64,000 nt of DNA, from assembly GCF_009909195.1 (NCBI RefSeq), contig NZ_JAAAMU010000007.1:124001-188000 (forward strand), read 5' to 3'. A program made the translations under genes and the position numbers. This document shows, piece by piece, positions 22 to 44,042 of this stretch. The notes under the pieces were generated by a model that was not told the origin of the DNA, searched no databases, and saw only the letters and a list, made by a program, of their open reading frames with translations. The stretch is from Paenibacillus sacheonensis (GTDB lineage: Bacteria; Bacillota; Bacilli; Paenibacillales; Paenibacillaceae). Numbering within the stretch: the first letter of the stretch is position 1; the number at the start of each line of letters is the position of its first letter.

Positions 22-206
22 CTAACGGTTGTATGGGTCGCTATTCGGTATAAATGAGCCCTTTTAAATCGCTAACGATTGCCAGGAGGCTTATTCAGTG
101 ATTTTTCCGTGCTTATCAGCGCTTATATGCCAACTAACGTTTCTCACAAACGTTAGCGGCTAAGCAACCGCATATTTTGAAGATTAGCGCCGATGACAAT
201 CGTTAG
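22..206. repeat. Palindromic intergenic element, copy 1
   Basis: Four copies of a CTAACG motif are arranged with dyad symmetry: CTAACG at 22 and 72, and its complement CGTTAG at 151-156 and 201-206. The outer and inner pairs share the same centre (position 114), and the spacing inside each arm is exactly 50 bp. Each motif begins a longer module of the type CTAACGRTTG followed by GCTAWT. An extra CTAACG at 134 forms a short hairpin with 151-156. A second copy lies at 43114-43306. No coding potential is apparent. It could be a MITE-like element, a structured RNA or a protein-binding array. Confidence 0.75.
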
Positions 207-43113: not shown

Positions 43114-43306
43114 CTAACGGTTGTCAGCGTTGCTATTCATCTAATAATACGGCTCGATAAACGCTAACAGGTGTGACAGACGTTATTGAGCGCAAACGAG
43201 CGATTATGCAAGGGAAAATCTCGCAATAAGCCTCCTGGCAATCTGGCAATCGTTAGCGTTCTAAAATGGTCATTTTGAGCAGATTAGCCCCTGGCACAAT
43301 CGTTAG
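43114..43306. repeat. Palindromic intergenic element, copy 2
   Basis: The same architecture as the copy at 22-206, in the opposite orientation: CTAACG at 43114, CTAACA at 43164, and CGTTAG at 43251-43256 and 43301-43306. The outer and inner pairs again share one centre (43210), and arm spacing is exactly 50 bp. The shared inner module is CTAACGATTGCCAG ... GAGGCTTATT. An 8-bp tandem duplication (ATTGCCAG) accounts for its being 8 bp longer. No coding content is seen. Confidence 0.75.
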
Positions 43307-43323
43307 ATATTCTCGACATTCCG

Positions 43324-43355
43324 AGGGCCGCTTCGTATCGAAGCGGCCCTGTTTT
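43324..43355 (+). terminator. Plus-strand terminator next to palindromic element
   Basis: A perfect 12-bp stem AGGGCCGCTTCG/CGAAGCGGCCCT with a three-base loop is followed by GTTTTAT on the plus strand. No plus-strand gene precedes it; the nearest upstream structure is the palindromic element 18 bp away. Confidence 0.7.
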
Positions 43356-43478
43356 ATGGATGAGTCTGCTGCGTGAATGAGTCTGCTCGGGATGAGTCTA
43401 CTACAATGGATCTCCTGCGCTGAAAGCCGTGCGGCGTTAGCTTCATCGCGCTTTGTTCTTACGGGTTGTTTTGCCTAT

Positions 43479-44042
43479 TCAAGAATTCCCATGCAGTTTC
43501 CTGCCTGCCGCAACGAGGCTGGCAGTATCGGCCACGCGCTTTCCTAGCACTTCCCCTAGTCCAAGCCCATTCTTGAACAGCGATTGGATCAACTCATCGT
43601 TCGTTTCCTCGACGGGAGACGTGACACCGACGCCATAATAACTGCCGTACAGCGCATTTTCCGGAATATTGGCCGGCAAGCCGACGACCATCATGCCTTG
43701 ATGGAGCATCGGCGTAATCAGGTTAAGCAAGGTCGCTTCGATACCGCCATGAATGGTGACCGTCGTACAGAATACCGCGCCGATCTTATCCACCAACGTC
43801 CCGTTCGCCCACAAATACCCGAGTTTATCGATCCATTGCTTTAAGCCGGAGCTGATCGTGCCGAAGTGTCCGGGACATCCCCAGATAATCGCATCCATAT
43901 CGGCAAGATCCCTGACGTTCGCCTTATTGACGTGATTGATGAACACCTCGGCGCCCTCCACGCTTTGGGCTCCTTTGGCTATGGAACGTGCCAGTTGTTC
44001 CGTATGCCCCGCTTCGCTATCGTACACAATGTAGATTTTCAT
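43479..44042 (-). CDS. Flavodoxin-family / WrbA-like NAD(P)H:quinone oxidoreductase
   Basis: A 187-residue flavodoxin-fold protein. The FMN phosphate loop is [11 protein letters not shown] (8-18), and [18 protein letters not shown] matches the WrbA-type loop with FMN contacts. It probably reduces quinones or nitro compounds using NAD(P)H. GGGAGGAGA precedes the ATG. It follows the YhgE-like permease gene by about 42 bp on the same strand and may be co-transcribed with it and the TetR gene. Confidence 0.88.

Follow-up and report, generated by a model that had tools for sequence, protein, structure and literature searches.

Two dyad-symmetric sites of Paenibacillus sacheonensis belong to a dispersed family of four-site elements linked to an endonuclease-like gene

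Analysis of a 64,000-nucleotide stretch of Paenibacillus sacheonensis DNA, referred to here as the window, revealed two sites that are members of a large dispersed family of 185-bp elements in Paenibacillus-type bacteria. This family of four-site elements is real, undescribed as far as our searches reach, and linked to an endonuclease-like gene. The rigid layout of the elements, their dispersal, their presence or absence at one orthologous gap, their linkage to the gene and the correlated divergence of the two partners can all be read from the sequences compared. On the interpretation that we favour, and consider probable, the four-site element and a solitary gene for a nuclease-like protein of ~216 aa make up a two-part system that resembles REP/RAYT and is built from unrelated parts. 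From sequence we infer that this ~216-aa protein may bind, cut and mobilise the element.

Both sites had been picked out in the initial annotation, which described four CTAACG-type motifs around one shared centre at each of 22-206 and 43114-43306, and this arrangement was found at both places. In copy 1, CTAACG is located at 22 and 72 and CGTTAG ends at 156 and 206, and the outer and inner pairs are both centred on 114 with arms of 50 and 50 bp, exactly as had been claimed. Copy 2 lies on the other strand with respect to copy 1, again in agreement with the earlier description, with CTAACG at 43114, CTAACA at 43164 and CGTTAG sequences ending at 43256 and 43306; its centre is at 43210 and its arms are likewise 50 and 50 bp. 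The length of copy 2 is 193 bp, compared with 185 bp for copy 1, because an 8-bp stretch within one of its four sites is duplicated in tandem (Table 1). The likeness of the two copies is not a matter of chance, since at least 81 distinct matches, 71 of them full length, were present in the fetched loci of the same genome. A terminator-like hairpin adjoins copy 2 and sits between it and the 3' end of the ORF at 43479-44042. Beside this hairpin, at 43357-43402, TGGATGAGTCTGCT occurs as three imperfect repeats spaced 15-17 bp apart.

Table 1. Coordinates of the two element copies, their dyad sites and the adjoining hairpin, given as positions in the window
Feature	Position	Strand	Basis
Copy 1, four-site element core, 185 bp	22..206	+	sequence, genome search, alignment
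Copy 1 dyad site 1, TAACG-N11-CGCTA	23..43	+	sequence; half-site offset 16 in related elements
Copy 1 dyad site 2, TAACG-N11-GCTTA, degenerate second half	73..93	+	sequence
Copy 1 dyad site 3, inverted, TAACG-N11-CGTTA	135..155	-	sequence
Copy 1 dyad site 4, inverted, TAGCG-N11-CGTTA on + strand	185..205	-	sequence
Copy 2, four-site element, 193 bp = 185 + 8-bp duplication	43114..43306	-	sequence, genome search, alignment
Copy 2 outer dyad site, + strand reading TAACG-N11-TGCTA	43115..43135	+	sequence
Copy 2 inner dyad site, + strand reading TAACA-N11-CGTTA	43165..43185	+	sequence
Copy 2 inner inverted site, interrupted by 8-bp tandem duplication	43227..43255	-	sequence, alignment row L031
Copy 2 outer inverted dyad site, TAGCC-N11-CGTTA on + strand	43285..43305	-	sequence
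Terminator-like hairpin, 12-bp arms, fully paired, adjoins copy 2	43324..43350	.	inverted-repeat finding

A search of this and related genomes with a spaced-motif or profile model had been proposed as a check, and it recovered many intergenic copies in which the spacing was kept. Searched at the DNA level, the own genome (G000, 7.44 Mb) had at least 49 matches to copy 1 (40 of 63 candidates scored) and at least 48 to copy 2 (40 of 75 candidates scored), counts that include second pieces or the opposite strand of one place. The first 60 loci from this genome comprised 43 distinct ones, with core lengths of 185 bp (27), 184 bp (14), 186 bp (1) and 193 bp (1); its copies matched copy 1 at only ~70-78% despite this near-constant core length. 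A sequence-only profile built from 46 copies (32 from the own genome and 14 from relatives) gave at least 150 matches in the own genome when both strands were counted. Across all fetched loci there were 175 distinct matches, 147 full length and 28 partial, and the full-length matches measured 185 bp (109), 184 bp (21), 186 bp (13), 183 bp (2), 187 bp (1) and 193 bp (1). Arms of exactly 50 bp accounted for 137 of the 142 in full-length elements of the own genome, and among 141 full-length elements from four genomes this exact length was seen for the left arm in 134 and for the right arm in 132, and the inner distance was 74-75 in 135; these matches were chosen by the profile, which brings some bias towards such lengths, and partial matches were excluded. 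Profile matches were identified in 11 of 22 genomes of the genus (E 0.001) and, at the level of the family, in 64 of 118 genomes and 15 of 19 genera (E 1e-6, with scoring limited to 22 candidates per genome). The initial annotation did not recognise the element as a known family; our search of the open-access literature likewise gave no named family, and no description of such an element and gene pair was found there.

Variation in the number of modules was observed outside the window in G000, with shifts in steps near 50 bp; some of the 28 partial matches are such whole-module variants. These variants included a five-module form of 235 bp (185+50) at C43:172250-172484, a three-module form from which the first module is absent at C43:439060-439195, and an element with extra partial modules appended at C44:268638-268917. 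Tandem pairs of elements were located at C43:266354-266850 in G000 and at L071 in G014, the G000 pair carrying a nearly identical flank repeated between its two copies.

Placing the modules side by side revealed that they open with two half-sites in inverted orientation, TAACG-N11-CGYTA, after which comes TTTG or a similar sequence. The 220 modules of 55 gene-adjoining elements contained 72 exact TAACG...CGYTA pairs, all at offset 16 (offsets of 9-27 covered), and one exact half was missing from the remaining modules. As all 72 exact pairs share this offset, we describe the element as four 21-bp dyads, some of them degenerate, which start at about 1, 51, 114 and 164 of the element and are arranged two facing two. 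The CTAACG...CGTTAG ends form terminal inverted repeats. Relatives displayed the same layout with related or different words (CTAACGGTTG, CTAACGAAYC and others). The second half-site, CGYTA 16 bp after TAACG, was absent from the initial annotation, as were the homologous flanks in the own genome and the linked gene family.

Comparison across genomes of the ORFs that flank elements revealed one family that stood out among those that recur, a protein of ~216 aa. Its gene lies between two elements in G000 and G004, is found with a tandem pair in G014, and is also located beside an element in G010, a genome with a single place matching the profile. Homologues were identified in 21 of 22 genomes of the genus, and at least 1010 were present at E 0.001 in a protein collection (1200 candidates), many of them with the source name 'transcriptional regulator' or 'DNA-binding response regulator'. 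Sequence and modelling together predict a stand-alone gene whose product combines an endonuclease-like (DUF559/PD-(D/E)XK-type) domain with a C-terminal winged helix. In the fold model (pLDDT 90) the order of helices and strands resembled that of a PD-(D/E)XK core, with the winged helix after it. E58, D72, E85 and H92 were invariant in 59 of 59 sequences, and the secondary structure together with the invariant E58, D72 and E85 fits an alpha-beta-beta-beta-alpha-beta core with conserved acidic residues. The first domain of distant paralogues matched DUF559 / REase_MTES_1575, and DUF559 scored above the Pfam cut-off in three of six distant paralogues, four of the six having been picked for an already listed nuclease domain; the ~216-aa protein of the window genome itself was below Pfam cut-offs. 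The winged helix dominated the fold search: the whole protein gave no match at E <= 0.001 among 1787, the top match was an R2 retrotransposon protein too weak for use (E 0.002, TM 0.27), and winged helices were listed on a second inspection. No match to Y1_Tnp was detected in two linked proteins (E up to 1) or six paralogues (E up to 0.01).

The association between gene and element was analyzed by scanning gene loci for the four-place layout. In 10 of 30 loci of the ~216-aa family a known-type element was present within 1.5 kb (E < 0.001), and 16 of 30 had a 7-letter word of any kind in the four-place layout, in some cases with several mismatches, the words differing by paralogue; no layout was detected by the same scan in 10 shuffled loci. 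A sample of 80 gene loci (the best 80 of 476, from named Paenibacillus, Cohnella and Bacillaceae-type genomes) was searched for any 7-letter word recurring at four positions, the spacing being free from 40 to 60 and the total 150-220. At distances of up to 1 kb from the gene, the spacing was 50 in 42 loci and 51 in 14, with 42, 44, 49 and 56 in one each; beyond 1 kb, it was 50 in 8 and 51 in 3, with seven other spacings in 1-3. Markov-shuffled flanks yielded none at 50 or 51, and one locus each at 48 and 57. Altogether 55 of the 80 loci had a layout at 50 or 51 within 1 kb (downstream of the gene in 50, upstream in 13, on both sides in 8), including 6 of 9 from Cohnella and 11 of 18 with Bacillaceae-type names, and the median position of the nearest layout centre was 152 bp past the end of the gene match. 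A further 11 of the 80 had the layout farther out, in flanks of up to 5 kb. No element was present within 1 kb in 25 of the 80 loci, and a less stringent scan of those 25, reaching up to 600 bp downstream, gave two at spacing 50 and one at 49. Clustering of neighbours identified no other gene family in more than 10 other loci.

Two further arrangements of gene and element were observed. Beside another paralogue in G018 (L234, 445-780), the four-place layout with the word CTGAGAG recurs every 111 bp as an interleaved array. In G017 (L342), a homologue of the ~216-aa protein apparently starts right after the terminator of a tagO-like gene, and an element lies behind that gene in G000.

Different paralogues of the ~216-aa gene were accompanied by the same layout with different words. 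Mean word likeness was 7.39 for elements of one gene (n=45 pairs) compared with 5.41 for different loci (n=1485). Protein similarity correlated with word similarity over 55 loci (rho 0.27, Mantel test, reached by 0 of 2000 permutations), a correlation that includes shared ancestry and was computed with word registers set automatically. A prediction was tested in G005, which has the gene and no profile match, and whose own gene-linked element has the word TTTGGCGG. The TTTGGCGG-type element gave 27 matches in G005, which are sequence matches not counted by four-site layout and include the query place and short or repeated pieces; nine other places had E < 1e-6, and no matches were detected in four other genomes. 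The CTAACGGTTG-type word was linked to one protein in G000, G004 and G014. Many CTAACGGTTG-type profile matches were present in G003 and G007, where no protein is more than ~60% identical to the CTAACGGTTG-linked one, and the CTAACGGTTG-linked protein of G011 looks broken; these genomes speak against a simple pairing of protein and word.

Protein binding and RNA folding had both been suggested at the outset as constraints on the spacing. The first has indirect support from sequence, in the form of fixed dyads, fixed spacing and a linked DNA-binding gene, and is consistent with the two-part interpretation; the second did not hold, with neither covariation nor an Rfam match. A structured RNA element would have its palindromic modules fold within a transcript, and single copies did give stable folds, with a mean z of -3.7 over 43 own cores and of -8.8 over 19 rows from relatives (five loci in both orientations), but inverted modules fold on their own. 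Compensatory changes among copies had been named at the outset as support for a family; in a test of 46 sequences and four module pairings, none was clearly above shuffles. The largest covariation excess, for the outer modules in the full set, had z 2.6 at the true register and 2.5 one column off; the percentage paired was highest at the exact register, as inverted sites would give, and the top scores of a covariation scan fell mostly between non-pairing columns. Rfam at gathering score gave 0 matches within the window. RNA structure was ruled out as the constraint because base-pair covariation was absent, and we regard a structured RNA as a very improbable explanation of the element.

Elements were located mostly at gene 3' ends. 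Of 77 in the own genome, 38 lay between tandem, 33 between convergent and 2 between divergent genes, one overlapped a predicted gene and three were at locus edges, compared with 12 tandem, 4 convergent and 5 divergent among window gaps of at least 150 bp, all orientations resting on a simple purpose-made gene finder. Promoter operators in general were ruled out, because only 2 of 77 elements lay in divergent gaps. The 33 elements between convergent genes, the C-terminal winged helix and the occurrence of 'transcriptional regulator' among source names would suit an alternative in which a DNA-binding regulator, its nuclease domain possibly inactive, occupies the elements throughout the genome and acts at gene ends as an insulator or part of nucleoid structure, with spread by ordinary duplication and recombination. 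However, such regulatory or chromosome-organising sites agree poorly with the scarcity of elements in divergent gaps (2 of 77) and with gene-adjoining elements that lie downstream in 50 loci and upstream in 13. Diverged copies have few arm indels, which suggests a constraint in place, and G003 and G007 have kept elements although neither has a close relative of the protein that matches them, both as a regulator would allow; the invariance of E58, D72, E85 and H92 and the presence or absence of the element at an orthologous gap count against it, and we consider the regulator unlikely.

This orthologous gap lies between an M42 peptidase gene and a lipoprotein gene, both of which were present in 11 of 15 loci. 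The gap was empty in five genomes (lengths of 112-199 bp; a single terminator-like hairpin in four), contained the element in five (one degenerate) and held other sequence in one. Nearly the same hairpin flanks the element on both sides only in G000; in the other filled gaps, inspected by eye, the element follows a single terminator. A second gap, behind a tagO-like gene, had by eye no usable conserved neighbour pair.

Analysis of the flanks of own loci revealed matches between the left and right flanks of the same locus in 13 of 75, mostly hairpins and including one tandem copy, compared with 0.62 expected from mixed pairs; in 12 of the 75 the matching stretches were ~30-310 bp outside the core, the thirteenth being the tandem copy. 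The other 62 of 75 copies had no left-right match, and such matches were found in 4 of 44 in G004 (one hairpin-like) and 2 of 34 in other genomes (one a hairpin). No target-site duplication touching the core was seen by eye in 43 flank pairs, and a MITE consisting of the core only was set aside on this ground. Own-genome copies share extra flank on both sides, sometimes with matching hairpins, as if a larger unit had moved, and this could point to a passive MITE that is moved, now or once, by an unrelated transposase, the linked protein being a passenger or host factor. Yet by eye these long flanks are unlike those of other species, and no duplication touches the core. No other neighbour gene is conserved in the loci compared, and the shared layout appears with different words beside paralogues of the linked gene, observations that also argue against passive movement, which we judge to be distinctly improbable.

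In the own genome the outer ends of the long version carry GGATTGTCGAGAA, regarded as candidate terminal inverted repeats because similar words were also seen in another species (L354), within a hairpin that looks like a terminator. Variants such as GATTGTCGAGAA and TTCTCTACAATC were observed at the outer ends of long copies in five own-genome loci (L003, L005, L021, L024 and L039) and also in this hairpin, which belongs to G016, and may represent either the ends of a moving unit or a common terminator type. In the left flank of L048, about seven CATGTAAGC repeats are arrayed between the left hairpin and the element.

In the two-part system that we favour, dimers of the ~216-aa protein would bind the four dyads and bring them together in a single complex, an assembly that would require the 50-bp spacing. 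The complex of protein and element may then nick DNA and spread the element, a step that is less certain than binding. Spread would favour intrinsic terminators. Some elements have a copy of the terminator hairpin on either side, which would suit a cut in each strand at the hairpin base; a staggered cut at the two bases would give such matching hairpins.

In REP/RAYT, as reported, a solitary gene lies near dispersed extragenic palindromic elements and enzyme groups are matched to their own repeats (PMC3116915, PMC8266576). RAYT (TnpA_REP) enzymes are reported to be HuH proteins acting on single-stranded REP (PMC3116915), and the reported REP length is 20-40 bp (PMC3733652). The system described here is like the pairing of REP/REPIN with RAYT (the 'REPtron') in having a solitary gene near dispersed extragenic palindromic copies and proteins matched to their own repeats: the gene had its own repeat nearby in 55 of 80 loci, and 81 own matches attest to genome-wide dispersal. 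In contrast to the HuH enzyme RAYT, the protein encoded here combines a DUF559/PD-(D/E)XK-like domain with a winged helix, and in contrast to a REP of 20-40 bp, the element spans 185 bp, has four dyads with arms fixed at 50 bp, and shows no covariation between pairing positions. A REPtron is also defined by a hairpin-forming single-stranded substrate; stable folding was seen here, but no pairing covariation. As the HuH enzyme is missing, we place the four-site system outside REP/RAYT, though probably like it in working.

Other known repeats and proteins were compared in the same way. The BIME/REP arrays of enterobacteria are extragenic mosaics of palindromic units, often behind genes, and would by description be distinct from the exact four-site dyad layout. 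Integron attC-like sites were a further candidate comparison, suggested by the CTAAC/GTTAG words. MITEs and small repeats (BOX, RUP, ERIC and bcr) are short, non-coding and dispersed, with inverted ends. The element shares all of these features, but its inner modules are as constrained as its ends, a nuclease-like gene is linked to it, and no duplication at the core was seen by eye. DUF559 / REase_MTES_1575 proteins resemble the first domain of distant ~216-aa paralogues, which differ in their added winged helix, stand-alone gene and linked four-site element; the open-access literature on the DUF559 domain yielded no tie to repeats.

A broader claim, which to us seems evenly poised, is that these elements and proteins represent a new class of repeat-and-enzyme system, widespread in Paenibacillaceae and also present in Bacillaceae, in which a protein that joins a restriction-endonuclease-like fold to a DNA-reading domain of its own would assemble on four dyads at 50-51-bp spacing and spread a double-stranded element into terminators, with one word per paralogue. 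RAYT/REPIN is a known two-part system of a lone enzyme gene and a population of short repeats. If our interpretation is true, the present system would be a second of this kind, its enzyme unrelated to RAYT and its target a double-stranded array of four sites, and this way of life would have more than one evolutionary origin. The paralogues, each with its matching word, would form a natural series in which recognition of DNA by protein could be tested directly. Dozens of intergenic stretches in each Paenibacillus genome would be accounted for, and a function would be assigned to a protein family that sources name 'transcriptional regulator'.
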